Positions 2 through 16,701 of a DNA stretch of 23,155 bases are shown here, one piece after another (position 1 is the first letter of the stretch; each line of letters opens with the position of its first letter). The stretch lies in IMG/VR virus record IMGVR_UViG_3300027736_001515, positions 1 through 23,155 of that record; one strand, given 5' to 3'. The notes under the pieces are model-generated. The model did not search any database and was not told where the DNA came from. It saw nothing but the letters and a program-made list of their open reading frames with translations. Source of the DNA: a virus. The position numbers and the translations under genes were made by a program.

Positions 2-1354
2 CTATACTCAGGTGGACATGCAAATCTTGACCTTGCTAAACAAGACTGGTCAGAAGACATGGTGCGGTCCCGAGAGCCTGGAACGTTTATACTGGGAGAC
101 TCTGGAGGGTTCCAGATTGCCAAGGGTCTTTGGGAAGGCGATTGGAAAGCCAACTCAGGTTGTGCTAAGGCTCAAAAGAAAAGATCACTTATTTTAAACT
201 GGTTAGACAATGTGGCAGACTATGGCATGATCTTGGATATCCCAACTTGGGTTATACATGACAAGAAAGCATCAGCGGCCTGTCAAATTACCACGCTACA
301 AGAAGCAGTGGATGCCACAAAGTTTAATAACGAATACTTTATGAAACACCGCAAGGGTGTGGAGAATGGTGGTGCCAAGTTCTTGAATGTGTTGCAGGGC
401 GATAATCATACATCTGCAGACCAGTGGTATGAGACCATGAAGGAGTACTGCGATCCTGTGAAATACCCAGACACACACTTTAACGGTTGGTCCATGGGTG
501 GACAAAACATGTGTGACGTACACTTGGTACTTCGCAGACTGGTAGCACTACGCTATGACAATTTACTTCAAGAAGGCAAACATGATTGGATGCACTTCTT
601 GGGAACCTCCAAACTGGAGTGGGCTGTTTTATTAACTGTAATCCAAAGGGCCGTAAGAAAATATGTCAATCCAAACTTCACAATCTCGTTTGACTGCGCC
701 AGTCCGTTCCTTGCAACAGCAAACGGACAGGTCTACTTCGAAAATGTCTTTGAACACGACTCCAAGTGGTCGTATCGCATGGCTCCTTCAGCCGACGACA
801 AAAAATATTCCACAGACACACGCAAGTGGGGAACAGGGGTAGTAGCAGATGGCATCTATCCACGTTGGGAAGATTCACCTATCAGTGATCTACTCAAGAT
901 GAAAGATATTTGCATCTACAAGCCCGGCGATCTAAATAAGATCGGCAAAGAAGGCAAGACAAGTTGGGATAGTTTCTCATATGCTTTGCTCATGGGCCAT
1001 AATGTCTGGATGCATTTGACTGCGGTACAAGAAGCCAATCGACGTTTTGATGCAGGTGAACATCCTGCTATGATGCGTAGGTCAGGTGGAGACTATGCCA
1101 AGTTTGAAGACATTGTGGAAGCAATCTTTGCCTCACCAGATCGCGAGACTGCCGAAGCCATTATTGAGATGTACGACACATATTGGATGGAGATTGTGGG
1201 CACACGAGGATTCAAAGGCAAGAAAACCAAGAATGCCCGAACACAATTCAATGCGCTATTTGAATTCGAAGAACCTGAGACTGTACAAACAAATGATGAT
1301 AGTGTACAATTAGACATATCAGCACTAGATCAATTAGAAAATGAACAGACCTGA
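2..1354 (+). CDS. dpdA: DpdA/TGT-like 7-deazaguanine transglycosylase (5' truncated)
   Basis: The frame is open to the left edge, so the start lies outside the window; an in-frame ATG at 59 is too late because conserved sequence precedes it. The family swaps guanine for a 7-deazaguanine base on a TIM barrel. The DSGGFQ motif (nt 98-115) matches the base-recognition Asp of tRNA-guanine transglycosylases. FDCASP (Asp codon at 692) matches the nucleophile motif FDCVxPTR, and GWSMGGQ (about nt 487-507) sits where TGTs have GGLSVGE. The CxCxxC zinc motif of tRNA enzymes is not visible, which fits the DpdA branch acting on DNA better than a housekeeping tRNA enzyme. folE, queD and queE in the same window support a role in 7-deazaguanine modification. 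The stop overlaps the next gene. The family is secure; the DNA substrate is inferred. Confidence 0.82.
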   Translation, partial: LYSGGHANLDLAKQDWSEDMVRSREPGTFILGDSGGFQIAKGLWEGDWKANSGCAKAQKKRSLILNWLDNVADYGMILDIPTWVIHDKKASAACQITTLQEAVDATKFNNEYFMKHRKGVENGGAKFLNVLQGDNHTSADQWYETMKEYCDPVKYPDTHFNGWSMGGQNMCDVHLVLRRLVALRYDNLLQEGKHDWMHFLGTSKLEWAVLLTVIQRAVRKYVNPNFTISFDCASPFLATANGQVYFENVFEHDSKWSYRMAPSADDKKYSTDTRKWGTGVVADGIYPRWEDSPISDLLKMKDICIYKPGDLNKIGKEGKTSWDSFSYALLMGHNVWMHLTAVQEANRRFDAGEHPAMMRRSGGDYAKFEDIVEAIFASPDRETAEAIIEMYDTYWMEIVGTRGFKGKKTKNARTQFNALFEFEEPETVQTNDDSVQLDISALDQLENEQT

Positions 1355-1844
1355 ACACGAAAATGTCAACTTCTTTGTGGGCACAGAAGTAGAACGCACA
1401 CCTGCGTTTGGCAAAAAAACTTTGTTTGTGGTTGACGTTCAACCCACAGTGGAAATACTCAGCAGATTCCTTGGCAACGGATGTGAGCATATCTTCTTTG
1501 GTGCCAATCACAGTTTCCATCCTGACAACAGGCTAGCGTGGCAACGTTGGGAAAGCATGATCGAACCATTCCTGGGCGACGGATATCTATGTAGTTTAGA
1601 CATTCCAATCACCCATGTGTATGAGTTTCACGATGGCCCACTCTGCGACTACAGAAATTTTATTCCACAAATTCGAGTAAGTCTACCCTATACAAAGTTG
1701 TGGAATTATAATACAATGTTAAAAATAGATGACAAAGACTTTGATGCCACCAATCCCGGAGTTTGGTGTCACAGTCTACACAGCCTAATGAGCCGTGATG
1801 CATTTACATCATGGGATGATTATAAACAGGATCAAAAGTTATGA
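1341..1844 (+). CDS. Conserved phage protein of unknown function next to DpdA
   Basis: This 167-residue soluble protein has no signal peptide or membrane segment. I recall similar proteins in aquatic myoviruses but cannot assign a function. Striking blocks are FVGTEVE (12-18), GANHSFHP (54-61) and a C-terminal KIDD...DATNPGVWCH stretch (128-144). The alternating hydrophobic strands and conserved Asp/His/Asn suggest an enzyme, perhaps barrel-like. No CxxxCxxC cluster, nucleotide-binding loop or nuclease motif is visible. It starts 14 nt inside the DpdA-like gene, and its stop overlaps the ATG of the T-fold gene (ATGA at 1841), so the three are probably co-translated. Context therefore suggests a role in 7-deazaguanine metabolism or insertion. 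Real gene: confident. Function: unknown. Confidence 0.8.
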   Translation: MNRPEHENVNFFVGTEVERTPAFGKKTLFVVDVQPTVEILSRFLGNGCEHIFFGANHSFHPDNRLAWQRWESMIEPFLGDGYLCSLDIPITHVYEFHDGPLCDYRNFIPQIRVSLPYTKLWNYNTMLKIDDKDFDATNPGVWCHSLHSLMSRDAFTSWDDYKQDQKL

Positions 1845-2293
1845 ACCAAAGAGACCAAGCACTAACAGAACAGCGTGAGCGAATCATGAGTCAAGCAGAA
1901 CGTAAAATCTGGGTCACATTCCGCAAAGAAGGAATACATTGTTATCCTGCGGCCGCAACAGACCCTGCATTGGCCACAGGCGATGAATATGATGTTAGTT
2001 TCCTCGGAACACCACATCGTCACATATTCCACTTTAGAGTTTGGATTGATGTGCTACACAACGATCGTGATATTGAGTTTATTCAATTCAAGCGTTGGTT
2101 GGAAAACTTGTACAAGGACGGAATCTTACAACTTGACTATAAGAGTTGCGAAATGATGGCTGATGACTTGTACGCAGAAATTGCCGCACGATACCCAGAT
2201 CGTGCTGTGTGGATTGAGGTTGCCGAAGACGGTGAGAATGGTGCCTTGATCAAATATGAAATCACTCACCCAAGTCTTTCAATCAAGATTTAA
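1841..2293 (+). CDS. Putative T-fold (QueD-like) protein
   Basis: This 150-residue protein has a layout resembling tunnelling-fold pterin/purine enzymes such as QueD. A possible first metal ligand is H33, followed by an HRH pair (59-61) at the start of a beta strand. A D/EFxxFKR segment (79-85) resembles the usual DFxxLK. KSCEMMADDLY (101-111) resembles the PTxENLA helix, and a final IEVAEDGENGALIKY strand resembles VxVxETxxxxxxY. A metal triad H33/H59/H61 would match the three zinc histidines of QueD. The start at 1841 overlaps the previous stop; a second ATG at 1886 would trim 15 residues and keep the core. True QueD is at 10479, so this would be a second, diverged T-fold enzyme beside the DpdA-like gene. 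The fold call is by eye and needs a profile search; QueF-like is an alternative. Confidence 0.55.
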   Translation: MNQRDQALTEQRERIMSQAERKIWVTFRKEGIHCYPAAATDPALATGDEYDVSFLGTPHRHIFHFRVWIDVLHNDRDIEFIQFKRWLENLYKDGILQLDYKSCEMMADDLYAEIAARYPDRAVWIEVAEDGENGALIKYEITHPSLSIKI

Positions 2294-3036
2294 TGCACAC
2301 CTTATACCTTGGACCCAGTTGGGCGGTCCAAAGTTTTGAATCCACACACGGGGTAGACGATCCTGTCAAAACCAACCTGGCTCAAGAGTTAGAGTTAAAC
2401 AATTACACCTCTTTGGCATTGTATGCCAAAAGTAATCTTGATCAACTGCATGATGCCGAAGAGTTTATGCAACATAATCCAGAACTGGCACCGTTTAGGA
2501 TCGTGTTTATCACTGCAAATTCACTGCAAGATGCACACAAAATTTCCAAGATATCCCAAGCGGACTTTGCTCGAGCATTCCTGACCAGTGCAGATCCTAT
2601 TGATATAATAAAGACTTTAGAACAACAGTTTTATCGTCGACTAAACAGTCTTGATATACCAGTGGCCTTGATAGGTGCCCATACTGATATTGAATGTGAA
2701 TCATTTGATAACATAACTGTGATACACCCAAGTTGGCAAAATTTTCTTGGCCAGTATTGCGGTCTAAATAGTTTCTATGGATGGTCGGCAGATGTTGCAC
2801 ACAGATGGTTACGAGGTGTTATTATACCTGACTACGGTCCACCTGAACATTTTGAATTAGCGGGTAGACCATCAAAAGTAGTGGTTGACGAAATTCACAA
2901 ACTAATCAAAATCAACTGGCAAATATTAGAAAAAAATAAATTGTTCACAGGTTCGCATCCAAACATACAGGGTAATCAATTGTTCGCACAAAAAATCAAA
3001 CAATCGGTTAACAACTGGATTGACAAACATCAATAA
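2293..3036 (+). CDS. SGNH/GDSL hydrolase-like protein
   Basis: This 247-residue protein resembles the SGNH esterase fold. A block-I-like segment at the N-terminus, YLGPSWA (5-11), carries a possible nucleophile Ser9. A C-terminal SHPNIQGNQLFA stretch carries the block-V His222. The usual Asp three residues before that His is Thr219, so a classical triad is uncertain and the protein may be catalytically altered. No signal peptide is seen, so it should act in the cytoplasm. ATG overlaps the preceding TAA by one base. It ends just before a strong promoter, making it the last gene of the left operon. SGNH proteins near sugar genes sometimes act on O-acetyl groups, but no substrate can be read here. 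A second SGNH-like gene lies at 17970. Confidence 0.55.
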   Translation: MHTLYLGPSWAVQSFESTHGVDDPVKTNLAQELELNNYTSLALYAKSNLDQLHDAEEFMQHNPELAPFRIVFITANSLQDAHKISKISQADFARAFLTSADPIDIIKTLEQQFYRRLNSLDIPVALIGAHTDIECESFDNITVIHPSWQNFLGQYCGLNSFYGWSADVAHRWLRGVIIPDYGPPEHFELAGRPSKVVVDEIHKLIKINWQILEKNKLFTGSHPNIQGNQLFAQKIKQSVNNWIDKHQ

Positions 3037-3077: not shown

Positions 3078-3302
3078 ATGGCCAAGCCATCACTCAAATC
3101 CAACCCACGTGTCGCTGAGATCTTTAATGATCTGGAAGTGTTCTTGGAGTTCTGTCAGGACTATGGATATCGTTACAACGAATCAGACCTGTATAACTTC
3201 AAGAGTTACGCATGGCAACAGTTCAACAAGTGGCATGCGGGCAAGAATGCCAAGAACATGTGGAACGAAGATTCACGTCGCTTTGCAGGATTCCGTGCAT
3301 GA
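3078..3302 (+). CDS. Small conserved hypothetical protein
   Basis: This 74-residue, charged, probably helical protein has no cysteine-based metal site, signal or membrane segment. Tyr, Phe and Trp are abundant (for example DYGYRYNESDLYNF), giving a compact aromatic core. The start is clear: AAAAGG lies 7 nt upstream of ATG, behind a near-consensus promoter. Its TGA overlaps the ATG of the glycosyltransferase at 3299, so the two are translationally coupled. I do not recognise a family. It may be a partner of the glycosyltransferase or simply the first gene of an early operon. Confidence 0.75.
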   Translation: MAKPSLKSNPRVAEIFNDLEVFLEFCQDYGYRYNESDLYNFKSYAWQQFNKWHAGKNAKNMWNEDSRRFAGFRA

Positions 3303-4513
3303 GAAAACTGTACTACATGGGCTTGGAAAGTTACGAAGCCCGTTACACACTACAATTAACAGAGTGGAACCGGCGTGTGTTTGACCGTAGAGGTCTTGAC
3401 GTAGTATACGTTCCTGGTACTACTATTGATAATACACAGGCTATATCAGTTGGTCAAGTGTTAGATGCACACGGTCGCAGTTACTTTGGCATGAGCCAGA
3501 TGATGAACTTGGTTCAAATGATGAAGAACGGTGCGGTAACCGGTGAAGATGTGATCTACTTTGAAGACATGTTCCAACCTGGATTTGAGAGTCTTGGTTA
3601 TATCATGAACCAGATTCCTAAAGAACAATGTCCTAAAATTTACGTGCGCTGTTTGGCACAAGCAATCGACCCTGATGACTTTGTTCATGTGTGGGGATTG
3701 CAAAAGTGGATGGACCTATATGAAAAAATGGTTAACGAGATGGTTGCCTTCTCCGGTGGGGCGGTACTCGCCACTAATGAAGAGATGGTCGCTCACATGC
3801 GGATCGCTGGTTGGACTGCTCCAATCTATAACATTTCCGGGTTGGCATTTGGAAAAGCAGAAGTTCTCGAGCGTGTTGGCGGCAGTACCAACATCACACC
3901 GTTTGATCAGCGTCCACGACGAGTTGGGTTCGCGGCACGTTTTGATCAGGAAAAGCAACCCGGCTTCTTTATGGACCTTATTGAGATGTATGGTGAACTC
4001 ACCAGCGAACCTTGTGAGTTTGCAATATACAGTGGCGGACCTCTCCGAAGCAACAACCCAGAGTATGTTGAACGTGCCCGTCGTATGGAGGCACAGGGGC
4101 GACTCAAAATCTTTGATAACATAAGCAAGAACGAATATTATGCTCATCTCAACAACACTCGTGTGCTTTTTAATTGTGCTCTTCAGGACTGGGTCTCTAA
4201 CACCGTCAGTGAGGCTGATACTCTTGGCTGTAACGTCCTCTACCCTGCTTATCGCTCTTTCCCCGAGACTTTTGCAAACGATTCAAACCGCCTTTACGTA
4301 CCCTGGAGCATAGACGATGCCTATCACAAAATGTGTAATCTTTTGCAGACTCCTCATCACAACATGGGCCTTATTAGTGATTGGAATAATGGGACTGTTG
4401 ATCGGATTGTTGATATTATTACCGGTCAGGGTAGTCAGTGGGATCGTTCGGGCCCTCGCTACAGAGATCATGTCCCGCACGAAAAATATCAAGTAGTAAA
4501 GATCGAAAAATAA
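3299..4513 (+). CDS. GT-B glycosyltransferase (group 1/GT4-like)
   Basis: This 404-residue protein begins MRKLYYMGLE. The reading frame stays open to 3212, but ATG 3299 overlaps the previous TGA and gives a normal N-terminus. The C-terminal half has the nucleotide-sugar-binding layout of retaining GT-B enzymes: a GFAARFDQEKQPG segment (sugar-diphosphate loop style) and a VSEADTLGCNVLYP segment matching the conserved E-x7-E/EAxxxG acidic region. The N-terminal half carries a VYVPGTTIDN and an acceptor-domain-like FEDMF region. I recall close relatives in marine myoviruses. It should transfer a sugar from a nucleotide donor in the cytoplasm; donor and acceptor are unknown. SDR, GalE and aminotransferase genes follow with overlapping starts, pointing to one pathway. 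Confidence 0.8.
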   Translation: MRKLYYMGLESYEARYTLQLTEWNRRVFDRRGLDVVYVPGTTIDNTQAISVGQVLDAHGRSYFGMSQMMNLVQMMKNGAVTGEDVIYFEDMFQPGFESLGYIMNQIPKEQCPKIYVRCLAQAIDPDDFVHVWGLQKWMDLYEKMVNEMVAFSGGAVLATNEEMVAHMRIAGWTAPIYNISGLAFGKAEVLERVGGSTNITPFDQRPRRVGFAARFDQEKQPGFFMDLIEMYGELTSEPCEFAIYSGGPLRSNNPEYVERARRMEAQGRLKIFDNISKNEYYAHLNNTRVLFNCALQDWVSNTVSEADTLGCNVLYPAYRSFPETFANDSNRLYVPWSIDDAYHKMCNLLQTPHHNMGLISDWNNGTVDRIVDIITGQGSQWDRSGPRYRDHVPHEKYQVVKIEK

Positions 4514-5130
4514 TGCAACGTGTGTTGATTATAGGTGCTACCGGTGGTATTGGCAGCAATCTTTTTCATCAGATGGCTGACAGTGCAGACTATGAAGTTG
4601 CTGGCTGGAGCAGTCAGGATCTTGATCTAGATTATCCCGAACGTATTTTTGACTGTGATTTCAGCGACATTGACATCTTGATCAATTGTGCCGGACACAA
4701 TCAAGGCAATTATCAAGGGTTCATGAAAAATTCTTGGCAAAATCAATACAGTCAAATTCGAGTCAACTATATTTCAAATGTGTTTTTGCTCAAGCAGTAT
4801 GCTGATCAACGATCGCATGGTAAATATGTTTGGCTCAACAGTGCCAGCACTAAGAATCCAAGAATTTTTCACAACACTTACATTGGCAGTAAAGTGGCCA
4901 GTAAATTCAGTATTGATTTGATCTCTCAAGAAGTTGAACATATCAAAATACTAGAGGCCAACATTGGTCTCACTAGAAGCAACATACGCTATAGAAATTT
5001 CTCTGGTACCAAGACCATGCAAGAGGTGCAAGACACATATGGTGATGACCATGTGCTGGAATGTGATTATGTTGCCGAACAACTGCTGTCGGCCATAAGA
5101 TCCGACCTAACTCATACGGAAATAAAATGA
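4513..5130 (+). CDS. Short-chain dehydrogenase/reductase (SDR)
   Basis: This 205-residue Rossmann oxidoreductase has the cofactor loop GATGGIG (8-14), the NCAG strand (58-61), serines at 110/112 and the catalytic pair Y123-x3-K127 (YIGSK). Active-site residues are intact, so it is likely functional; at 205 residues it is slightly short for a classical SDR (about 250). ATG 4513 overlaps the TAA of the glycosyltransferase (TAATG), which favours this start over earlier in-frame codons. Its end overlaps galE by ATGA. Context suggests oxidation or reduction of a nucleotide-linked or lipid-linked sugar. A second SDR of almost the same length lies at 13520 in the other sugar block. Confidence 0.82.
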   Translation: MQRVLIIGATGGIGSNLFHQMADSADYEVAGWSSQDLDLDYPERIFDCDFSDIDILINCAGHNQGNYQGFMKNSWQNQYSQIRVNYISNVFLLKQYADQRSHGKYVWLNSASTKNPRIFHNTYIGSKVASKFSIDLISQEVEHIKILEANIGLTRSNIRYRNFSGTKTMQEVQDTYGDDHVLECDYVAEQLLSAIRSDLTHTEIK

Positions 5131-6074
5131 TTATTATAGTAACAGGAGCCGCAGGCTATATTGGCGGTCAGACTGTCTTGTTGTTGAAAGACGCAGGGCA
5201 CACCGTGTACGGAATTGATCGTAGACAACCACCCAAGCATCTGCTGGGAGTAGTTGATAACTTTTTGTTCCAAGATTTTTCTAGCGACGTGGCCCTGAAT
5301 TGGATCATTGCCAAACAACCTGATGCCATCGTTCATTGTGCCGGCACCAGTCTTGTTGGACCCAGTGTCACAGATCCCGGTGAATATTACAACAACAATG
5401 TGGCCAAGACATTAAAACTCTTGGACATTGTTCGTAAGAGTTTGCCTCGGACTAGATTTATTTTTAGTTCAAGTGCTGCCACATATGGTGAACCCTTAAT
5501 GGGCGAATCACACGAAGTTGATCCTTGCATGCCCGTGAGCCCGTACGGCGAAAGTAAACTCATGATTGACATGATGCTGGAAAGCTATCATCGTGCATAC
5601 GGGCTCGATTATGTGAGTTTTAGATACTTCAATGCATGCGGTGCTGATCCTCAAGGACGACATGGACAAGAGCCCGGTGCTACACACGTGATTGCTCGGT
5701 TATTGGAAGCCACTAGAGACGAAGAGACGTTTAAAATATATGGAGTTGATTATCCTACTGCTGATGGTACTTGTGTTCGCGATTACGTGCATGTGGATGA
5801 TATCGCCCGAGCCCACGCTTTGGCTTTGTATCACAAAATCCCTGCAGGCGTCTACAACCTCGGATCAAACTCAGGAACCTCAGTCAAGCAAATAGTGGAA
5901 CGTGCAATGTCTATTACTGGCAAGAAGCCAGAGATTATGTTTGGTGCGGCACGAGCCGGAGATCCTCCGGAACTGACTGCTAGTGCAAACAAGTTCAATC
6001 TGGTAGCAGGTGCTTGGCGACATTATGATCTAGATGCCATGATTCAACATGCATGGGCGTGGTATGTTCGATAA
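5127..6074 (+). CDS. galE: UDP-glucose 4-epimerase-like (GalE) extended SDR
   Basis: This 315-residue protein has all extended-SDR marks. GAAGYIGG (7-14) binds NAD, SSSAATYGEP lies around 114-123, and the catalytic pair is Y140-x3-K144. RYFNACGADP, a GRHGQ...TH segment and DGTCVRDYVHVDDIARAH are highly typical of GalE, which interconverts UDP-glucose and UDP-galactose (or the N-acetyl forms) in the cytoplasm. It is slightly shorter than bacterial GalE (about 335). The ATG overlaps the SDR stop (ATGA), and the aminotransferase that follows overlaps its end. It probably supplies a donor sugar to one of the phage glycosyltransferases. Related 4-epimerases with other substrates cannot be excluded. 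Confidence 0.85.
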   Translation: MIIIVTGAAGYIGGQTVLLLKDAGHTVYGIDRRQPPKHLLGVVDNFLFQDFSSDVALNWIIAKQPDAIVHCAGTSLVGPSVTDPGEYYNNNVAKTLKLLDIVRKSLPRTRFIFSSSAATYGEPLMGESHEVDPCMPVSPYGESKLMIDMMLESYHRAYGLDYVSFRYFNACGADPQGRHGQEPGATHVIARLLEATRDEETFKIYGVDYPTADGTCVRDYVHVDDIARAHALALYHKIPAGVYNLGSNSGTSVKQIVERAMSITGKKPEIMFGAARAGDPPELTASANKFNLVAGAWRHYDLDAMIQHAWAWYVR

Positions 6075-6660
6075 GATTCTAAAGTTTGAACAAGAACTGG
6101 CCCGGTTCACCGGAGCACCATATGCCATCATGACTGATTGTTGTACACATGCAATCGAATTGTGCTTGCGATACGAGCAAGTAAAGTCATGCGAATTCAC
6201 ACCTTACACCTATGTGAGTATTCCCATGCTTATGCACAAGTTAGGAATCCAATATCAATATTCAAATCATGCATGGCAACGTTGGGTAGGCGAATATCCT
6301 TTTCTAAATACAAGAATTTGGGATAGTGCAAGACGTTTAGAACGCAATATGTATCGCTCAAATACCATGCAATGTTTAAGTTTTGGACATGACAAGCCTT
6401 TACATATAGGCCGAGGTGGTGCTATAATACTAGATGACAAGACGTCATATGATGCAATAATTCGCATGAGATATGATGGTCGAGATCTAAATATTACACC
6501 CTGGATAGAACAACGTGAGTTTCAAATTGGATATCATTATAAACCTACACCAGAAGAGGCCGCCCAGGGATTGGCGTTGCTGGAAGGTCTTAAAGAACAT
6601 TGTCCGCCACCAAGGCACGTTGATTATGCAGATCTAAGAACAATCACTATCAAGGAATAA
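6064..6660 (+). CDS. Short DegT/DnrJ/EryC1-type sugar aminotransferase
   Basis: This 198-residue protein follows the DegT family: FTGAPYAIMTDCCTHAIELCL matches the N-terminal Gly/Ala-rich cofactor region. PYTYVSIPMLMHKLGIQY follows, then SFGHDKPLHIGRGGAII, where the Lys occupies the place of the PLP-binding lysine. Full-length members have about 370 residues; here the C-terminal small domain is nearly absent, yet the frame ends cleanly at TAA. An in-frame ATG also exists at 6049; 6064 gives the shorter overlap with galE. The family transaminates keto-sugars bound to nucleotides, consistent with the SDR/GalE context. The shortened form may be a specialised phage version or may have lost activity. 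Confidence 0.72.
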   Translation: MFDKILKFEQELARFTGAPYAIMTDCCTHAIELCLRYEQVKSCEFTPYTYVSIPMLMHKLGIQYQYSNHAWQRWVGEYPFLNTRIWDSARRLERNMYRSNTMQCLSFGHDKPLHIGRGGAIILDDKTSYDAIIRMRYDGRDLNITPWIEQREFQIGYHYKPTPEEAAQGLALLEGLKEHCPPPRHVDYADLRTITIKE

Positions 6661-6661
6661 A

Positions 6662-7399
6662 ATGACAGAACCAGTATCAGTAAATAACATTGATGACAAA
6701 GGCTACGAAGAAGCATATCTAGCAGATGCCATTCGTTTCAAGATGAAACGTGAAGGCAAACGCTTTTGGGCTGGTGACAACGTTAGTGACTATGTTAGTG
6801 AAAAAGATAAAGAACAATTAATCAATGATGCCACAGAAGCATTTGAACGAGTATTAGACACACTATTGATTGACAGAGAAAATGACCCAAATTCACAAGG
6901 CACGGCTCGCCGGTTGGCAAAGATGTACTTCAATGAAATTATGGCTGGTCGCTATGAGGAATCGCCTAATGCAACGGCTTTCCCAAATGACACAGATGGA
7001 GCATACGAAGGCATGCTGGTTGTGCGTAGCGAACTTAAGAGCATGTGTAGCCACCATCATCAACCTGTTACGGGTGTTGCTTATATTGGAATCATTGCTG
7101 GCCCCAAACTCATTGGTCTTTCGAAGTACACCCGTATTGCACAGTGGTGCGCCCGTCGTGGAACCCTTCAAGAAGAACTCTGCATGGATATCGCTCGTGA
7201 GATCGGGACAGCAACTGGATCCAAGGATGTGGCCGTTTATATTCAGGCTACCCACGGATGTTGCGAGAATCGTGGTATTATGGCTCATAGTAGTCTCACC
7301 CAAACTACCGTACTCCATGGAGCTTTCAAGTCAGACCAAAGCGTAAAGAAAGAATTCTTTGATAATATTAAACTGCAACAGGACTTTGCACCACGATGA
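6662..7399 (+). CDS. folE: GTP cyclohydrolase I
   Basis: FolE converts GTP to 7,8-dihydroneopterin triphosphate, the first step of both folate and 7-deazaguanine synthesis. The 245-residue protein contains CSHHHQPVTG (129-138), holding zinc ligands C129 and H132. It also has GLSKYTRIAQWCARRGTLQEEL (152-173) and ATHGCCENRG (196-205) with zinc ligand C200. These are the full signature elements and the catalytic residues look intact. It is a little longer than E. coli FolE because of an N-terminal extension. AAGGAA a few bases before ATG 6662 is a good ribosome site. With queD and queE in the window, the product most likely goes to 7-deazaguanine rather than folate. Confidence 0.95.
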   Translation: MTEPVSVNNIDDKGYEEAYLADAIRFKMKREGKRFWAGDNVSDYVSEKDKEQLINDATEAFERVLDTLLIDRENDPNSQGTARRLAKMYFNEIMAGRYEESPNATAFPNDTDGAYEGMLVVRSELKSMCSHHHQPVTGVAYIGIIAGPKLIGLSKYTRIAQWCARRGTLQEELCMDIAREIGTATGSKDVAVYIQATHGCCENRGIMAHSSLTQTTVLHGAFKSDQSVKKEFFDNIKLQQDFAPR

Positions 7400-8671: not shown

Positions 8672-9573
8672 CAACCCCCCTGCAATCTAATTTGATTGGT
8701 ATTGCAACAGCACCGGCTGATTGTGTCGCTGATCCTGTAAAAGATCAACTGGTGCAAACTATTATAAAATCTATAGGTGCCAATTGGTTAGAGGATGACT
8801 ATGTAGTGCCGCACTATCTCAAAAGATATCGTGAGTGGATCGAAAGCACCCAACTGAATTATGTTACAGGGCTAGATAACTTTCCCAGTGTAACTTACTC
8901 ACAAGGTACCACAGAAAGTTTTGACAAGTTTTATTTACGCAATAGGAATCGTCGTTTTCGTTGTTTCCGCGGAGAATACTTGTATCACGAACTGACCTGG
9001 CGTAACTTAGGACACGATTGGGCTTACATTGACGACAAAGAACTTCAAGCAAACGATGCTGTTATTTTTAGTCTGCCATTTGCTGACACTGGTAATCAAA
9101 AAAACACTCAAGAACTGCTTGATACTTGTTTATCTTTAGGAATACCTGTATTAATAGACTCAGCATTCTTTGGAATTTGTTCAGGCATTGACTTTGATTA
9201 CAGCCATCCTACTATTACTGATGTTACTATGAGTCTTAGTAAACCATTCCCAGTGTATGGTATGCGTATTGGTATTAGATTTAGTAAAGACACCACAGAC
9301 GGATTGAATATCTATGGCAATACTCATTATGTCAACAAGTTCGGAGCGGCAGTGGGTGTGCAACTATTCAATCATCAGCATCCGGACAAAATATTTACTC
9401 GTTACAAAGACCAGCAATTAGCCTGGTGTGAAAAGTATAATTTGATTCCTAGCAACTGTGTGACATTTGGGTTAGACTATAATCATCAGTATGATAATCA
9501 CAATCGTGGAAGTGCAGACAGCAATCGTATCTGTTTTGCTAAATTCTTTAACAAAGGCTACTTGCCACTATGA
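8668..9573 (+). CDS. PLP-dependent fold-type I aminotransferase-like enzyme
   Basis: This 301-residue protein has the core of class I/II aminotransferases. YSQGTTESF (77-85) is the cofactor-phosphate loop and IPVLIDSAFFGI (159-170) carries the ring-nitrogen Asp164. SLSKPFPVYGMRIG (189-202) holds the Schiff-base Lys192 and phosphate-binding Arg200. It is short for the family (350-400), mainly at the C-terminal small domain. A strong GGAGG lies 6 nt before ATG 8668. The PP-loop ATPase overlaps its end by ATGA, suggesting consecutive steps: amine formation and an ATP-activated amide or thio transfer. Substrate could be an amino acid, a sugar or a base derivative. Confidence 0.75.
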   Translation: MTTPLQSNLIGIATAPADCVADPVKDQLVQTIIKSIGANWLEDDYVVPHYLKRYREWIESTQLNYVTGLDNFPSVTYSQGTTESFDKFYLRNRNRRFRCFRGEYLYHELTWRNLGHDWAYIDDKELQANDAVIFSLPFADTGNQKNTQELLDTCLSLGIPVLIDSAFFGICSGIDFDYSHPTITDVTMSLSKPFPVYGMRIGIRFSKDTTDGLNIYGNTHYVNKFGAAVGVQLFNHQHPDKIFTRYKDQQLAWCEKYNLIPSNCVTFGLDYNHQYDNHNRGSADSNRICFAKFFNKGYLPL

Positions 9574-10394
9574 CATGGATTCCAGGTGGTCACGACAATT
9601 GGTTTTCAATATCACTAGATGGTCCAACATTTGAACTAAAGTTTAACCAACATGCAAGTAAGTTACACACCGACTTTGATAGTGTTGCAGACGTGGCCGC
9701 CAATCTATTATATCAACAATGGAACGATCGCCCGTTGTATCTTGCCATGAGTGGTGGTATCGACAGTGAGTTTGTGGCCAATACATTGTATAGAAATAAC
9801 ATTCCGTTTGTTCCTGTTATTTTAAAAATTGAAAATTACAATTCTACAGAATCCTGGTTTGCAGAACACTGGTGCTACCGCCACTGTATTCAACCCACAA
9901 TATTAAATTATTCAATGCCCATGTATTTGGATGCTATGGCTAAATTTTTTCCAAATTTGGTAAAAATTAAACAACCCAGTCAAACGGCAATGATGATAAT
10001 ATATAACTGGATTACACAACAAGATGGGGTTTGTATATACGGCGCCGGAGATATAAATTTACAAGACGGTAAATTTTTCTGTAATAGTTTAGATTTTATC
10101 AGCACCGTTGTGTACAATGATCGTCATCCTGTACCGTTTTTTATGTACACGCCCGAATTGGCATTATGCTATGTGTCAAAATTTGACATCACCATAAGTG
10201 AGCAGTATAATAAATTAAATTTTTATGGTGTCCCTGCTAGACCAAAATTTGATTATATTGATAGTCTTCACCGACTACCAGAGCACAAAATACAAATAGG
10301 TAAACTTGTCACACTATGCAAGTTTCCATTGGATTTTGATCCTTACCATTGGTATGGTACACAAGAACAACTCATGAGAGATTTACAACCATAA
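9570..10394 (+). CDS. PP-loop ATPase, asparagine synthase-like or QueC-like
   Basis: This 274-residue protein carries the pyrophosphatase loop SGGIDS (61-66) after a strand, preceded by a roughly 55-residue N-terminal region. PP-loop enzymes adenylate a substrate oxygen before replacing it with N or S. QueC, which makes preQ0 from CDG, belongs to this superfamily, but its C-terminal zinc cysteines (CxxxxxxxCxxCxxC pattern) are missing: there is no C-terminal cysteine cluster. Its SGGIDSEFVA loop is closer to asparagine synthase-like phage proteins. No glutaminase domain is present, so ammonia would come from elsewhere. It ends the folE operon; the next gene, queD, has its own promoter. QueC replacement is an open possibility, not a call. 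Confidence 0.7.
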   Translation: MTWIPGGHDNWFSISLDGPTFELKFNQHASKLHTDFDSVADVAANLLYQQWNDRPLYLAMSGGIDSEFVANTLYRNNIPFVPVILKIENYNSTESWFAEHWCYRHCIQPTILNYSMPMYLDAMAKFFPNLVKIKQPSQTAMMIIYNWITQQDGVCIYGAGDINLQDGKFFCNSLDFISTVVYNDRHPVPFFMYTPELALCYVSKFDITISEQYNKLNFYGVPARPKFDYIDSLHRLPEHKIQIGKLVTLCKFPLDFDPYHWYGTQEQLMRDLQP

Positions 10395-11012: not shown

Positions 11013-11903
11013 ATGAAAAACGAATACAGCATAGCAGTCTTACTGCCAACTCGCAGCCGCACTGATGCCCTTACTACCAGTGTAACCAGTATTGTAGATC
11101 TAGCCGAAGATATTTCGCGCATACAATTGATCTTTGGGTTTGACGATGATGATGAAATTGGCTTAAATCATTTCAAAACAGTGATTCAGCCATTTTTAGA
11201 TAAACGTAAGGTGTCTTACGAGGCTCAGGCTTTTAAAAGCATGGGCTATGCTGGACTAAATCGATATTACAATCACTTGGCAAAGTCAACTTCGTCTGAC
11301 TGGTTGTTTGTGTGGAATGATGATGCTGTGATGGAGACTCAGGGGTGGGATAGTGTGATTGAGCAATACACAGGTGAATTCAAACTGTTAAAAGTTCATA
11401 CCCACCACGATCATCCTTATAGTATCTTCCCTATAATGCCAAGGGCATGGTATGAGTTAATCAATCATCTCAGTCGCCATCAAATGATTGATGCCGAACT
11501 AAGTCAGTTGGCTTTCTTGTTGGATATTATGCAAGTGATTGAGGTTGATGTCACACACAATCAAGTTGAGTTGACCAAAGACACAACCGATCCACTTAAA
11601 CCCAAAGTGCGATTTGAAGGTAATCCCACCAATCCTATTGACTTCCATCATCCACAAACCAGTGCTCGTCGTTATCAGGATTGTGATGTTATTGCTGAAT
11701 ACATGCGCTCAATTGGACTAGACACCTCTTGGTGGGAAAGTGTCAAGAGTGGAAAAAGTTATGTCTGGGAAAAATTAATTGCCCTGGATGTTAACAAACA
11801 AATGAGTCAATTTGTAATGGAACTTGACGAGCGTGGGCAAGTGTTGTCTTATAGCAAAGATCAAAAAAGTGAAGAACTCCGGAGATCTCTTGCAACAAAA
11901 TAA
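11013..11903 (+). CDS. GT-A glycosyltransferase-like protein
   Basis: This 296-residue protein shows the start of a GT-A (family 2-like) domain: IAVLLPTRSR (about 7-16), then a FGFDDDDE acidic strand and a WNDDAVMETQGWD segment that matches the DxD metal/nucleotide site of these transferases. A long C-terminal part with several His residues is unassigned. No membrane helix is visible, so it is a cytoplasmic transferase. It opens the second sugar block; the methyltransferase starts inside its 3' end. No Shine-Dalgarno sequence precedes ATG 11013, only the late-promoter motif. Donor and acceptor are unknown; a virion protein, host glycan precursor or DNA base are all possible. Confidence 0.72.
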   Translation: MKNEYSIAVLLPTRSRTDALTTSVTSIVDLAEDISRIQLIFGFDDDDEIGLNHFKTVIQPFLDKRKVSYEAQAFKSMGYAGLNRYYNHLAKSTSSDWLFVWNDDAVMETQGWDSVIEQYTGEFKLLKVHTHHDHPYSIFPIMPRAWYELINHLSRHQMIDAELSQLAFLLDIMQVIEVDVTHNQVELTKDTTDPLKPKVRFEGNPTNPIDFHHPQTSARRYQDCDVIAEYMRSIGLDTSWWESVKSGKSYVWEKLIALDVNKQMSQFVMELDERGQVLSYSKDQKSEELRRSLATK

Positions 11904-13110
11904 TATAACAGTCAGCAACTTGGTTACTGAGTGTGTGATTTCCAAAGGCTCGGTTAAAAAAATACTTGATTTTGGACAGCATGCCTATGCCGATACATTT
12001 ATCCGTCCTGATCAACTGCATCTCAGCGAGCCTGTGTTTCCTTTGCAGGTATATCTCAATAGTGATTCAGGTAGTATACAATTAGGATACATTAGTTCAG
12101 CCAAGGACCGTTACAATCTCTACAGTTATAGTTATACTTCTAGCAATAGTCAAACAGCCAGAAACCACTGGGATGAATATGCACAAACAATCAAACGTCG
12201 CGGTCATACAGGACTAGTAGTAGAAATTGGCAGCAACGACGGTTATCTTGTTGGGCAATTCGATCAAGCGGTAGGAGTAGATTCTAGCGCAGAAATGTGT
12301 GCATTGTCTCAAGCAAAGGGCATTGAAACCATCAACACTTTGTTCGATGACGCCACGGCTGACGCAATAAAAAACAAACATGGATCAGCATCAGTAATCA
12401 TTGCTAACAATGTGTTTAACCATGCCAACAATCCTGTGGCATTTGCACAGAGCGTGGCAAGATTGCTATCAAGTTCAGGAGAATTTGTGTTTGAAGTTCC
12501 TTATTGGCTCAGCATGATCGAGTCAGGAAGATTTACCGACATGGTATACCACGAGCATCCTACTTACTTTACTATAAAGATGGCCTGGAACCTGTTAAAA
12601 ACTGCTGGGTTAGAAATAACCGACTTTGATGTGGTTGATTATCACGGTGGTAGTTTACGAGTGTTTGCACGTCTCGACACTGGCGCTGATATGCCGGTTA
12701 AAATTCAAGATGCTATAGTTAAAGAAACAAAAACAGGTTTGTTTGATCCTGCATTTTATCAAAACTTACAACTTCATTTTGAGCAATCTAAGATTGATTG
12801 GCTTGCGTCTTTCTATAAATTACTCAGTGAAGATCCTAACGCAGTTGTCATAGGTGTAGGTGCGGCTGCCAAGGCCAACACATGGTTAAAGTGGCACGGA
12901 CTCGACAGCACAATGATTCGTTGCATCACTGATGCCAGTGAGCACAAACAGGGCAAATATACACCACTTACTAGAATCCCAGTGTTGGCAGATGAAGAGT
13001 TTGCCCAACACAAACAACCATATGCTTTGATATTGAGTTGGAATATTGGCGAAGGACTTCGCCGTGCTATCTTAAATATCAATCCCAACACAAGGTTTAT
13101 ATCACAATGA
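11890..13110 (+). CDS. NDP-sugar C-methyltransferase-like SAM enzyme
   Basis: TTG 11890 is chosen as start: GGAG (11881-11884) lies 5 nt upstream and the gene then overlaps the previous stop by 14 nt; no in-frame ATG is available near the start. The 406-residue product matches deoxysugar C-methyltransferases of the TylC3 type in length and order. An N-terminal ILDFGQHAYADTFI segment is followed by the SAM loop VEIGSNDGYL (111-120). A C-terminal VVIGVGAAAKANTWL Rossmann-like domain completes it. The family's N-terminal zinc cysteines are reduced to one (C15), an unusual loss. It would add a methyl to a keto-sugar on a nucleotide, and the cupin gene overlaps its end (ATGA). Confidence 0.8.
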   Translation: MQQNNITVSNLVTECVISKGSVKKILDFGQHAYADTFIRPDQLHLSEPVFPLQVYLNSDSGSIQLGYISSAKDRYNLYSYSYTSSNSQTARNHWDEYAQTIKRRGHTGLVVEIGSNDGYLVGQFDQAVGVDSSAEMCALSQAKGIETINTLFDDATADAIKNKHGSASVIIANNVFNHANNPVAFAQSVARLLSSSGEFVFEVPYWLSMIESGRFTDMVYHEHPTYFTIKMAWNLLKTAGLEITDFDVVDYHGGSLRVFARLDTGADMPVKIQDAIVKETKTGLFDPAFYQNLQLHFEQSKIDWLASFYKLLSEDPNAVVIGVGAAAKANTWLKWHGLDSTMIRCITDASEHKQGKYTPLTRIPVLADEEFAQHKQPYALILSWNIGEGLRRAILNINPNTRFISQ

Positions 13111-13517
13111 AAACATACAACATTTACGCCGATCACGGTTTAAAAGGTCTTGGATCTTTTGCAGATGACCGTGGTAGTATTACTGACATATTTTATATGG
13201 CCAATATGAATCATGGCTGTATTATTACCAATCAACCAGGTGCTGTGCGTGGCAATCACTATCACAAATTTACCACACAATACACTTACATATTGTCCGG
13301 CACATTGACCTACTACAGTAAAAGTATAGGTGGTGATGAACCCACAGACGTGTTCGATGCTGTGGCTGGTGCCATGATCATCAGTGACCCTCTTGAAATT
13401 CATGCTATGAAGGCCGGTGCTGACGGATGTACTTTTATTGCATTTGCAGAAGGTCCAAGAGGCGGTGCAGACTATGAGTCTGACACCTATCGAGTAGAAG
13501 ATATTACTTCCGCATAG
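13107..13517 (+). CDS. Cupin sugar isomerase/epimerase-like protein (WxcM/FdtA type)
   Basis: This 136-residue small-barrel protein contains GAVRGNHYHKFTTQY (46-60). In this motif His51 and His53 correspond to the catalytic/metal histidines of nucleotide-sugar 3,4-ketoisomerases and 3,5-epimerases. YILSGTLTYY follows, as does a later LEIHAMKAG strand with His96. The size fits a single cupin domain. ATG 13107 overlaps the methyltransferase TGA; the frame remains open further upstream but no better start exists. It likely isomerises or epimerises a 4-keto-6-deoxy sugar nucleotide, a step that fits the neighbouring C-methyltransferase and SDR. A dTDP-sugar substrate is inferred, since no RmlA/RmlB is in the window. 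Confidence 0.78.
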   Translation: MKTYNIYADHGLKGLGSFADDRGSITDIFYMANMNHGCIITNQPGAVRGNHYHKFTTQYTYILSGTLTYYSKSIGGDEPTDVFDAVAGAMIISDPLEIHAMKAGADGCTFIAFAEGPRGGADYESDTYRVEDITSA

Positions 13518-13519
13518 TA

Positions 13520-14125
13520 ATGACAAAAACCGCCGTAATCATTGGCGCAAATAGTGATATTGCCAAGAGCGCCATACAACTGCTTCAAGAACAATATCAC
13601 ATTGTGGCCGTTGGTCGAGAAACAATTGACCTTGACGATCCCACTAGTGATATGCGTATCAGTATGATACTGACTATGGGTGAGCCGGATGTGATTGTTA
13701 ATTGTGCCGGTGTGTTTGACGGAGATAACACTCTGGATTACGATACTGTGTTTAATGTAAACTTAAAAAGCAATTGGTCTGTGATCAACTATTACATCAA
13801 AAATCCGCCAACTAAGTCTGTTAGATTTGTTATGATAGGGTCAAGTGCCTACAAGCAAGGGCGCAAAAACTTTATCTTATACAGCGCCAGCAAGGCGGCG
13901 TTGTTCAACGTATGGCAAGGTGCGAGTGAATTTGTTAGCGACAATTTGAAACTGGGGTTAATCAATCCAGTACACGTACATACTAAAATGACAGCACATA
14001 AACCACATCCAAATCCAGATATTTGTCTAGAACCGATTGATGTTGCAAAAGAGATTGTAAATTTATGTGACATGCCACAAAGTTGCTACATAGATATGGA
14101 TTACAAAATTAAGGATATAACATGA
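13520..14125 (+). CDS. Short-chain dehydrogenase/reductase (second SDR)
   Basis: This 201-residue SDR has a cofactor loop GANSDIA (9-15), a VNCAG strand (60-64), Ser108/109 and the catalytic Y121-x3-K125 (YSASK). The glycine loop is degenerate compared with GxxGxG but is seen in other SDRs. ATG 13520 follows the preceding TAG by 2 bases. Its stop overlaps the UDP-sugar dehydrogenase ATG. Length and layout parallel the SDR at 4513, suggesting the two are paralogues serving separate sugar blocks. Expected role: reduction or oxidation of a keto-sugar nucleotide after the cupin and methyltransferase steps; the substrate cannot be read from the sequence. Confidence 0.82.
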   Translation: MTKTAVIIGANSDIAKSAIQLLQEQYHIVAVGRETIDLDDPTSDMRISMILTMGEPDVIVNCAGVFDGDNTLDYDTVFNVNLKSNWSVINYYIKNPPTKSVRFVMIGSSAYKQGRKNFILYSASKAALFNVWQGASEFVSDNLKLGLINPVHVHTKMTAHKPHPNPDICLEPIDVAKEIVNLCDMPQSCYIDMDYKIKDIT

Positions 14126-14895
14126 AAATAGGAATTATTGGCAAGGGCACAGTCGGTAAGGCTGTATACGAAGGTTTGGAGTATCTTGGACACAGCATGT
14201 GTTTTTATGATCCGGCTTATGATGGTAGTAAACTGAGTGATGTACTGGACGCTGAATGTGTGTTTCTTAGTGTGCCAACCAATCAAGCCGACAACGGTGA
14301 TTGTGACACCAGCATTGTCGAAAGAGTGATTGAAGAATTAAATCAGCATCAGTACTCCGGCCTGGTAGCAATTAAAAGCACAGTGGTACCAGGTACTAGC
14401 AAAAGACTCAGCACACAATACCCAAATTTAAAAATATGTAGTGTGCCTGAATTTTTACGGGCCAAGACTGCTTTGGCAGACTTTGTTTACAATCACGATT
14501 TGCTAATCATCGGTAGTGATCGTGGGGAAGACTTTGAACTAATCAAAAAAATTCACGGGCAATTCCCAAAGAATGTGGCTTGTGTGAGTCCCACCGAAGC
14601 CGAAGTAGTCAAGTACTTTAATAACGTACATCATGCCATGAGCGTGACGTTTGCCAACATCACATACGATGTGTGTAAAAAATTAGGTGCTGATTATAAA
14701 AATGTGTATGATGCAATCACTCAAAGAGAATCTATCAATCCGCACTACCTAATGGCCAATGACAACATGCGCGGTTACGGCGGACATTGTTTGCCCAAAG
14801 ATACCAGCGCATGGAACAACTTGATCAAAGACCTTGGACTGCCATATACCTTGATCCAAAGTGTAATCGATGATAACCAGAAAGCAAACAAATGA
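14122..14895 (+). CDS. Short UDP-glucose/GDP-mannose dehydrogenase-like protein
   Basis: This 257-residue protein has the NAD loop GIIGKGTVG (4-12), a VPTN strand (51-54) and KSTVVPGT (85-92). PEFLRAKTALADF (109-121), an E161/K164/N168 cluster and the catalytic GYGGHCLPKD (218-227) with Cys223 follow. These are the N-terminal and central domains of UDP-sugar 6-dehydrogenases. Standard enzymes have about 400-450 residues; the C-terminal nucleotide-sugar-binding domain is missing, yet the stop overlaps the next ATG normally, so this is not a random truncation. All catalytic residues are present. It may use a smaller substrate or another subunit. The following UXS-like epimerase hints at UDP-glucuronate then UDP-xylose. 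Confidence 0.75.
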   Translation: MKIGIIGKGTVGKAVYEGLEYLGHSMCFYDPAYDGSKLSDVLDAECVFLSVPTNQADNGDCDTSIVERVIEELNQHQYSGLVAIKSTVVPGTSKRLSTQYPNLKICSVPEFLRAKTALADFVYNHDLLIIGSDRGEDFELIKKIHGQFPKNVACVSPTEAEVVKYFNNVHHAMSVTFANITYDVCKKLGADYKNVYDAITQRESINPHYLMANDNMRGYGGHCLPKDTSAWNNLIKDLGLPYTLIQSVIDDNQKANK

Positions 14896-15782
14896 AAATA
14901 TTAGTAACAGGTGCTAGTGGCCTACTGGGCACTGAAATTTGTAGACAATTAAAAACAGTTACAGGTAATGAAGTTTGGGCCGTTGACAATCACAGTCGCA
15001 GTTCAACCATTCCTCTTTGTGATCAATTCATGAACATTGATTTAACTGATAAAACTTCGATTGCCCAATTGCCACGGGATTTTGATTACATCTATCACTA
15101 CGGTGCCATCAACGGTACCAAGAATTTTTACGAGCGTCCCAATCAAGTTTTATCAAACAACTTTATCTGCGATATCAACATGTTTGAATATGCCGGCCAA
15201 AATGCAAATCTTAAAAAAATTGTGTATGCCAGCAGTAGCGAAATAGTAAGTGATGATCCTGTTAGTCCGGTGCCCGAACATGCAGACATTGCTATCCGGG
15301 ACATTCACAATGCTCGTTGGAGTTACAGACTTGCCAAAGTGTGTAGTGAAAACTATTTGGCCAACAGTAAACTACCTTATGTGATGTTGCGTTACTTCAA
15401 CGTGTACGGCGAGAACAGCAAGGCTGGTCACTTCTTGGCTGATCAGATTGCTAAAATTAAAGATGGCAAGTTTGAATGCTTTGGTGCCGACGAGACTAGA
15501 AGTTTCTGCCACGTAGAGGATGCTATCAGAGCCAGTATTCACTGTGCTCAAACACAAACTCGTGAACTGATCAACATTGGTAACGACAGAGAAATTACCA
15601 TCATGGATGCGGCACAAATTATCGCATCGGCACTGGGACATGATAATCCCACATGGGCTATCACTCCCGGCAAGCCTGGTAGCACAGCCAGTCGCAGGCC
15701 AGATATTAGCAAACTAAGAAGCGCGATGCCAGATTACGCCCCTATGAGTTTTGAACTGGGTGTGCAAAAATCAATTGGATAA
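14892..15782 (+). CDS. NAD-dependent epimerase/decarboxylase (UXS-like extended SDR)
   Basis: This 296-residue extended SDR has GASGLLG (7-13), a YHYGAINGT segment (68-76), an ASSSEI strand and the catalytic Y145-x3-K149. LRYFNVYG and a DETRSFCHVEDAIRA block follow, as in UDP-glucuronate decarboxylases and related epimerases. Its partner gene is a UDP-sugar dehydrogenase-like enzyme with an ATGA overlap, so UDP-xylose (via UDP-glucuronate) is a reasonable product guess. It differs from the GalE-like gene at 5127, which has the GalE motifs. It ends the second sugar block; queE downstream has its own promoter. The substrate is uncertain. Confidence 0.78.
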   Translation: MKILVTGASGLLGTEICRQLKTVTGNEVWAVDNHSRSSTIPLCDQFMNIDLTDKTSIAQLPRDFDYIYHYGAINGTKNFYERPNQVLSNNFICDINMFEYAGQNANLKKIVYASSSEIVSDDPVSPVPEHADIAIRDIHNARWSYRLAKVCSENYLANSKLPYVMLRYFNVYGENSKAGHFLADQIAKIKDGKFECFGADETRSFCHVEDAIRASIHCAQTQTRELINIGNDREITIMDAAQIIASALGHDNPTWAITPGKPGSTASRRPDISKLRSAMPDYAPMSFELGVQKSIG

Positions 15783-15799
15783 ACCGGCAAACTCACCAC

Positions 15800-15829
15800 T
15801 TGCAAAATATCCGCTGTTTCGTGTATAAT
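15800..15829 (+). promoter_or_regulatory. Sigma70-type promoter upstream of queE
   Basis: TTGCAA at 15800-15805 and perfect TATAAT at 15824-15829 are spaced by 18 bp. Transcription should start near 15836, giving about 20 nt of leader with AAAGGA before ATG 15856. It separates queE from the sugar block and matches the separate promoter of queD. Confidence 0.72.
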
Positions 15830-15855
15830 GTACAAGTATACAACAAAGGATATAG

Positions 15856-16701
15856 ATGTCTAAACTTAAAATAGCAGAATTATTTTATTCAATTCAAGGC
15901 GAAGGTCGATACATGGGTGTGCCCAGCGTGTTTCTTCGTACATTTGGGTGTAACTTTACTTGTGGCGGGTTTGGTATGCCGCCAGGTGAGATGAGTATGG
16001 AGCGTGATGCTATTGCTGAACGCATGGTTGATTTTAAAGATTACAATGAATTGCCATTAGTATCTACTGGCTGTGACAGTTATGCAAGTTGGGATCCAAG
16101 ATTCAAAGACCTGAGTCCCGTACTAGAAAGCGATGGCATAGTGCATCGCATTATGGAAATACTCCCGCATCGCCGCTGGGAAGATGAGCATTTGGTTATT
16201 ACTGGTGGTGAGCCATTGTTAGGATGGCAACGTGCTTATCCGGAATTCTTAGATCATCCTAGCATGAACAGACTTAAAGAGATTACGTTTGAGACCAATG
16301 GTACTCAACCACTGAGTGATGAATTCAAATCATATTTGTTTAAATGGGCTAAACAATCCAAACGAGAAATTACATTTAGTGTCAGTGCCAAGTTACCATG
16401 CTCGGGAGAAAAGTGGGAAGACGCCATTCAACCAGCCATTGTTTGTCAGTATGAATGGTTTGGCACAACCTATTTAAAATTTGTTATTGCTACAGAACAA
16501 GACTTAGTAGATGCTGAAAGGGCAGTAGATGAATATCGTAAGATGGGCTTTACTGGGCATGTGTATGTTATGCCTGTTGGTGGGGTTGAGCGGGTGTACC
16601 ATCTTAATAATAGAGCAGTGGCAGAGATGGCAATGCAAAAAGGATGGCGCTACAGTGATCGACTACAGGTGCCACTCTTTAAAAACGAATGGGGAACCTG
16701 A
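15856..16701 (+). CDS. queE: 7-carboxy-7-deazaguanine synthase (QueE), split Fe-S motif
   Basis: QueE is a radical-SAM enzyme that contracts 6-carboxytetrahydropterin to CDG. The 281-residue protein begins IAELFYSIQGEGRYMGVP, the QueE N-terminal signature, then LRTFGCNFTC (27-36). Most radical-SAM enzymes have CX3CX2C, but here C32 and C36 are followed by F39, and the third cysteine appears to be C73 in GCDSYASW (72-79), the equivalent of the usual CDTxxxW. A 36-residue insert thus splits the cluster motif. ITGGEP (115-120) binds SAM. The start has AAAGGA 6 nt upstream. It is longer than E. coli QueE (223). Its TGA is followed 1 nt later by a TTG-started small gene. Confidence 0.93.
   Translation: MSKLKIAELFYSIQGEGRYMGVPSVFLRTFGCNFTCGGFGMPPGEMSMERDAIAERMVDFKDYNELPLVSTGCDSYASWDPRFKDLSPVLESDGIVHRIMEILPHRRWEDEHLVITGGEPLLGWQRAYPEFLDHPSMNRLKEITFETNGTQPLSDEFKSYLFKWAKQSKREITFSVSAKLPCSGEKWEDAIQPAIVCQYEWFGTTYLKFVIATEQDLVDAERAVDEYRKMGFTGHVYVMPVGGVERVYHLNNRAVAEMAMQKGWRYSDRLQVPLFKNEWGT

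Follow-up and report, generated by a model that had tools for sequence, protein, structure and literature searches.

Which function can be assigned to two small genes that overlap a DpdA-like guanine transglycosylase gene, in a viral genome that also has its own queD? The question is raised by the left end of IMG/VR virus record IMGVR_UViG_3300027736_001515, of which positions 1 to 23,155, a stretch of 23,155 nucleotides referred to below as the window, were analysed. A sequence-only reading of this DNA had noted that its three left-most genes overlap each other. Indeed, the open reading frames (ORFs) overlap by 14 bp between the DpdA-like gene and the gene of a 167-amino-acid protein (U167) and by 4 bp (ATGA) between the latter and the gene of a 150-amino-acid protein (T150), and the following gene starts at 2293. 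Relatives of the two proteins were found in 597 and 529 IMG/VR stretches (one scan per gene), down to 25-40% identity; both are therefore conserved genes, which recur in hundreds of contigs from aquatic phages and are more than chance ORFs, and Pfam and NCBIfam searches gave no match that counts for either. With moderate confidence, we read the locus as a QueC-less cluster for 7-deazaguanine DNA modification, in which T150 would act at 7-carboxy-7-deazaguanine (CDG), DpdA would exchange the base, U167 would be its subunit and a sugar may decorate the product.

T150 and the absence of QueC

The AlphaFold2 model of T150, computed from 56 diverse window and IMG/VR sequences, has a pLDDT of 90.9 and displays the β-β-α-α-β-β order found in PTPS. 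Compared with the PDB, its top Foldseek matches are PTPS/QueD chains (E 1e-4), and VIA gives Z 11.6 for 2dtt (PTPS) and 10.3 for 4ntm (E. coli QueD). Furthermore, hhalign aligns the T150 profile with the profile of phage QueD proteins, the family of the window's own QueD (prob 67-73, E 3-5e-5); the score is 36.2, whereas 25 column-shuffled control profiles reach 15.6 at most, and it exceeds the scores of T150 against FolE and against QueE. The methods agree, and T150 is by its model a T-fold protein of the PTPS/QueD type, as the sequence-only reading had proposed. In searches with the sequence itself, T150 matches phrog_17812, a family of unknown function (E 2e-34); PF01242 gave no match for the window T150 at E<=1 (0.15 for its homologue in Vibrio phage Bakedbeans), the PDB returned just chance bacterioferritin matches, and an IMG/VR search with the T150 of Cellulophaga phage phiST found no additional relatives.

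QueD carries three metal-binding histidines, a catalytic cysteine and a base-binding glutamate. In T150, H33, H59, R60, H61, H73, R76, E79, S102, E104, E129 and D130 are invariant in 56/56 sequences, and E132 is also among the invariant charged residues. The histidines H33, H59 and H61, which had been put forward as a possible metal triad, are kept in the named-phage homologues as well, and R60 varies in PA5oct. When the order of motifs is compared with E. coli QueD, these three would correspond to the metal histidines, their metal role being predicted, and E129 to the base-binding glutamate. T150 thus resembles QueD/PTPS in its T-fold topology, its three-His site, its Glu near the C-terminal strand and a helix, SCEM..ADDLY, that aligns with QueD. 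It differs from QueD in lacking a PF01242 match, in a shorter loop at the Asp-His pair of QueD, in coexisting with a separate QueD and in an invariant Leu55 which, four residues before HxH, occupies the position of the catalytic Cys. Because of this replacement T150 was not filed as a QueD. In two phages T150 is found in fusions: in Bakedbeans it follows an unassigned N-terminus of ~250 amino acids (L333 5254-6405), and in Chryseobacterium phage MA9V-3 it is joined to an endonuclease VII-like domain (L337 5395-6276); considered as functional clues, these fusions were uninformative.

The gene content of 41 large or complete T150-bearing records, namely 30 IMG/VR contigs >100 kb and 11 named phages, was compared with that of 12 phages without T150 (9g, nt-1, Dp-1, HHTV-1, phiSM, immuto, phi38:2, Quesadilla, Mufasa8, StAshley, BSP7 and Youna2). 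FolE and QueE are present in 41/41 T150 records and QueD in 36/41, and a search with PF06508 found a credible QueC in 0/41. Two of the 41 exceed the PF06508 cut-off, one with a NadE-like PP-loop ORF beside QueE and the other with a 69-position partial match in an ORF that has no PP-loop motif. In the comparison set, QueC occurs in 11/12 and T150 in 0/12 (Fisher 1e-8, uncorrected for relatedness, which inflates the statistics of this non-random sample of named and large records). The window being a 23-kb fragment, the absence of QueC is judged from its relatives, e.g. the 149-kb contig of L003. The same opposition is seen in two phages of the same host, since Cellulophaga phage phiST has QueD-QueE-FolE-MazG-T150 and no QueC, and Cellulophaga phage phiSM has QueC-QueD-QueE and no T150. 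QueC is replaced by T150 in these phages.

CDG is the substrate consumed by QueC (PMC13329287); a pathway without QueC therefore leaves CDG to another fate, for which T150 is a natural candidate. Given that T150 is found where QueC is absent, it is placed at a branch at CDG and not at a pterin step, and CDG is most likely what it acts on. Hence, of the extra step on a pterin or deazaguanine base suggested earlier, the tie to the 7-deazaguanine pathway holds; the step is not simply added, QueC being absent, and the CDG branch is not a pterin one. A frequent presence of T150 and U167 in phages devoid of 7-deazaguanine genes was also looked for and not found, FolE and QueE being present in all 41 T150 records. 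Cui and co-workers are reported to have proposed in 2023 a CDG decarboxylase for phages, named DpdL, and judging from its gene context and residues T150 is probably such a DpdL-like decarboxylase.

T150 accompanies FolE, QueD, QueE and DpdA without QueC, DpdA being identified in part of the records only. It adjoins at least two DpdA types, that of the window and phrog_10773 (ACP17, X1 and BUCT-ZZ01), and possibly a third, small one in phiST, D479 and Ahp1 (phrog_20335/19058). T150 would thus serve the pathway and not a single transglycosylase. In phiST the unannotated candidate small DpdA is gp65 (phrog_20335; L162 9798-10577), which is related to the neighbour of T150 in Vibrio phage D479 and, via phrog_19058, may also be related to its counterpart in Aeromonas phage Ahp1.

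Two other observations concern the window's pathway enzymes. The phage QueD, in the window as in most loci, is of an AYRQW...HCxxxHGY type (HGY in 109/111) in which two of the three metal histidines of E. coli QueD (AHR, HGH) are changed and the catalytic Cys is retained. The idea that T150 complements such a QueD with its own histidines was rejected because the HGY type also occurs in the QueC phages phiSM, immuto and StAshley. A PP-loop ATPase-like ORF at 9570-10394 bears an SGGIDS motif. Considered as a QueC it was discarded, with no Cx8CxxCxxC zinc motif seen, no PF06508 match at E<=1 and phrog_1550 at only 0.27; being present in just 14/327 loci, it is not a core member of the cluster.

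The DpdA-like transglycosylase and U167

As a single sequence, the protein of the left-most gene gave no direct Pfam, NCBIfam or PHROG match, and DpdA2 likewise escapes simple searches (Hutinet et al., PMC6884629). An alignment of 24 family members keeps the TGT motifs DSGGFQ, LDIP, LQG, GWxMGGQN and HFLGTSK as well as an invariant FDCAS aspartate. Moreover, hhalign aligns the family collinearly with the TGT-like proteins of ACP17 and X1 (prob 60, E 8.5e-5), of which that of ACP17 matches TIGR00449 (E 4.6e-7). By these sequence comparisons the protein is DpdA/TGT-like, in line with its first description.

The AlphaFold2 model of U167 (pLDDT 94.3, pTM 0.88) has a β6/α3 strand and helix order which differs from that predicted for T150, and its Foldseek search against the PDB gave no match at E<=0.001. 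The best VIA matches are a STAS domain (Z 7.0 over 90 residues), B. subtilis QueE (Z 6.1 over 127) and E. coli QueE (5.7 over 126), and no T-fold chain is among the structural matches listed. By structure prediction, T150 has a T-fold and U167 does not look like one. Searches with the U167 sequence gave no match in the PDB at E<=10 and, in BFVD, the ACP17 homologue alone; the ACP17 protein in turn found no additional relatives in IMG/VR.

Thirteen residues are invariant in 58/58 U167 sequences (T27, F29, K128, D130, D131, N138, G140, V141, W142, T156, W158, Y161 and D164). They include the KxDD motif (K128, D130, D131) and N138, G140, V141 and W142, in agreement with the KIDD and ATNPGVW motifs by which U167 had been called conserved. 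The GANHSFHP motif named along with them holds in the form GANxSF, and the exact GANHSF is not conserved. E16 and E18 are invariant too once the start of the ACP17 protein is shifted upstream: the annotated start of ACP17 gp122 (L164 17303-17701) lies too late, and the upstream frame continues the FFxGxEVEHT motif. In a 146-kb contig (L234, G024; 69554-69952), only positions 1-74 and 107-166 of the U167 model are matched, the gene being either split or shortened internally.

Among the 41 records, the window-type DpdA is present in 26/28 records with U167 and U167 in 26/28 records with the window-type DpdA. DpdA, U167 and T150 are all present in 274/327 loci, a co-occurrence that the sequence-only reading had asked about; many of the IMG/VR contigs are near-duplicates and these counts are not phylogenetically corrected. 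In 85,000 cellular genomes U167 is nearly absent, with just 4 short contigs from metagenome-assembled genomes, and its distribution is nearly virus-restricted. U167 is previously undescribed and, as its distribution indicates, is probably a dedicated subunit of the window DpdA type, with which it may form a complex. The role of delivery subunit suggested earlier therefore suits U167 better than T150, since the occurrence of U167 follows the DpdA type and not T150, and its model does not resemble a T-fold.

It has also to be considered whether U167 is a pared-down relative of QueE which shares its core of six strands and three helices, lacks the Fe-S loop and binds CDG or 7-deazaguanine, as opposed to an unrelated subunit of DpdA. 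The QueE matches have the widest coverage among the top VIA matches, the β6/α3 order of strands and helices is shared, and the invariant E16 and E18 lie, by eye, near the IQGEG of QueE. However, Z values <8 may reflect a common arrangement and STAS scores higher; the profile score of 22.2 is not clearly above the maximum of 21.7 reached by 25 column shuffles, single-sequence scores equal the shuffles, and the CxxxCxxC [4Fe-4S] motif is found in 0/58. As a sequence relative of QueE, U167 was thus rejected, and we regard the structural relationship, retained as a possibility, as doubtful.

Sugar genes and locus layout

The commonest genes in 137 non-redundant loci are T150 (134), a glycosyltransferase (129), DpdA (120), FolE (119) and U167 (110). 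The conserved glycosyltransferase and the epimerase of the cluster were absent from the sequence-only reading. The window's glycosyltransferase falls below the PF13692 cut-off, its homologue in X1 passes PF00534 (8e-12), and further homologues are found in PA5oct, ACP17, BUCT-ZZ01 and Phosso. Among the T150 loci that span 9 kb or more, 257/271 encode a GT4-like protein no further than 5 kb from T150, always on the same strand and nearly always downstream. This tight linkage suggests that a sugar decorates the deazaguanine base, or another modified base. On the other hand, phiST, Ahp1, D479, Bakedbeans and RHph_I1_18 have T150 and no glycosyltransferase, and these exceptions include T150 phages with another DpdA; T150 hence works without glycosylation. 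An O-antigen-type cassette lying at the T150 locus as a chance neighbour would be another explanation of the linkage. A glycosylated 7-deazaguanine, obtained from CDG through T150, inserted by DpdA-U167 and given a sugar from the epimerase and aminotransferase-like genes by the GT4-like enzyme, is a tentative proposal that we consider possible; if T150 decarboxylates, it could be a carbon-carbon glycoside at C7. To our knowledge, glycosylated 7-deazaguanine in DNA has not been reported.

Table 1. Genes of the cluster in the window
Gene product	Position	Strand	Remarks
DpdA-like guanine transglycosylase	2..1354	+	5' end truncated at window edge
U167, conserved orphan protein	1341..1844	+	predicted dedicated partner of the window DpdA type
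T150, QueD/PTPS-fold T-fold protein (predicted), phrog_17812	1841..2293	+	predicted CDG-processing enzyme
74-amino-acid conserved protein, cluster member	3078..3302	+	83/137 non-redundant loci
GT4-like (GT-B) glycosyltransferase	3302..4513	+	PF13692 E 0.002, below cut-off; X1 homologue PF00534 8e-12
NAD-dependent nucleotide-sugar epimerase/dehydratase	5127..6074	+	PF01370 E 9e-56; 100/137 loci
Short DegT/DnrJ-like protein, PLP sugar aminotransferase family	6049..6660	+	PF01041 E 6e-14; 68/137 loci
FolE, GTP cyclohydrolase I	6662..7399	+	PF01227 E 3e-39
QueD, 6-carboxytetrahydropterin synthase (phage type)	10449..10985	+	PF01242 E 1.9e-14; phrog_2389 E 1.7e-34
QueE, CDG synthase (radical SAM)	15856..16701	+	phrog_2076 E 4e-51; profile against solved QueE chains 5e-14

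Other genes of the window were recorded as well. More nucleotide-sugar genes, namely C-methyltransferase, SDR, UDP-glucose dehydrogenase-like, epimerase and cytidylyltransferase genes, lie at 11824-17973 and 21345-22445, along with a fucosyltransferase-looking ORF on the minus strand that has no Pfam match. Two ORFs look by eye like SGNH hydrolases, one at 17970-18695 and one directly 3' of T150 (2293-3036), the latter of narrow conservation (11 loci). A phosphoribosyltransferase lies within the QueE-QueD-FolE-T150 cluster of Synechococcus phage BUCT-ZZ01 (L336 1441-1902), and a phosphoribosyltransferase-looking family is present in 27/137 loci, perhaps as a nucleotide-level route to the base.

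Proposed pathway and related systems

In the pathway that we favour, CDG would be made by FolE, QueD and QueE. Instead of QueC, T150 would then act on it with its metal site and guanine-gripping Glu, most likely removing the carboxyl group with the help of the metal (DpdL activity) to give 7-deazaguanine. DpdA would swap guanine in the phage DNA for the resulting base, and U167, translationally coupled to DpdA, would most likely be a dedicated subunit, whether for delivery of the base, recognition of DNA or activation. Finally, the neighbouring glycosyltransferase and sugar genes may add a sugar to the base. Several points weigh against this pathway. The enzymatic activity of T150 is one that we infer, its residues were equated with those of QueD by the order of motifs and the predicted secondary structure and not by residue-level superposition, and its DpdL name goes back to the reported proposal of Cui et al. 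2023. Furthermore, a decarboxylated base offers a glycosyltransferase no obvious hydroxyl or carboxyl handle. As for U167, it lies ~27 kb away from DpdA in PA5oct and is missing from the window-type DpdA loci of L061, L171 and Phosso; it is therefore not strictly required.

An alternative is another base-level reaction on CDG, in which T150 would for example activate, hydrate or amidate the carboxyl and CDG or a carboxyl derivative would be inserted and receive its sugar there. The glycosyltransferase directly downstream of T150 in most loci needs an acceptor group, and the invariant H73, R76, E79, S102, E104, D130 and E132 could do more than proton transfer. However, the T150 phages without glycosyltransferase and the lack of an ATP-binding motif in T150 make such a reaction unlikely in our view. 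We give still less credit to the view that T150 is a QueD paralogue without catalytic activity, which in a regulatory or channelling role would bind a pterin or deazaguanine and pass CDG to DpdA. The invariant L55 in place of the lost QueD catalytic Cys, the gene overlap with DpdA-U167 and the DpdA or DpdA candidate usually found alongside would fit such a subunit, but three His with invariant Arg, Glu, Asp and Ser over 46-96% identity are typical of a working metal site, and the mutual exclusion with QueC argues for chemistry. It is highly improbable that the genes make a tRNA base or serve folate or biopterin metabolism instead of DNA modification, since QueD, QueE and FolE are indeed common to tRNA queuosine synthesis but QueC is absent from these phages, a DpdA-type transglycosylase is adjacent and U167 is near virus-restricted.

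With regard to known systems, 7-deazaguanines made via QueC shield phage DNA from restriction enzymes. QTMAN and QTGAL are eukaryotic glycosyltransferases that modify tRNA queuosine at its cyclopentenediol, and they would be the nearest precedent if the window's GT4-type enzyme acts on a deazaguanine in nucleic acid, to which gene linkage points here. DpdL is reported as a phage gene product that acts after QueE in QueC-less deazaguanine phages, in a Cellulophaga context, and phiST has a T150 homologue; T150 is found here in much larger aquatic phages, with U167 and a glycosyltransferase, and is probably DpdL or a relative of it. QueE itself differs from U167, which is without its cluster cysteines and whose full-length structural resemblance to it is weak (Z 6.1), with a sequence similarity not clearly above shuffles. 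The phages with DpdA or DpdA2 and preQ0 or G+ (9g, nt-1, Dp-1; PMC6884629) share with the window type FolE-QueD-QueE, a transglycosylase and post-replicative insertion, but they have QueC where the window type has T150, U167 and a glycosyltransferase.

Together, these results would describe a large group of phages, aquatic and jumbo, including the cultured PA5oct/Paride-like phages, ACP17 and Phosso, in which a T-fold enzyme stands in place of QueC. A glycosyltransferase is linked to it in most of them, and the undescribed DpdA-linked protein U167 often occurs as well. They provide a candidate annotation for phrog_17812 and would predict which of the phages not yet measured bear CDG-derived or sugar-bearing bases.

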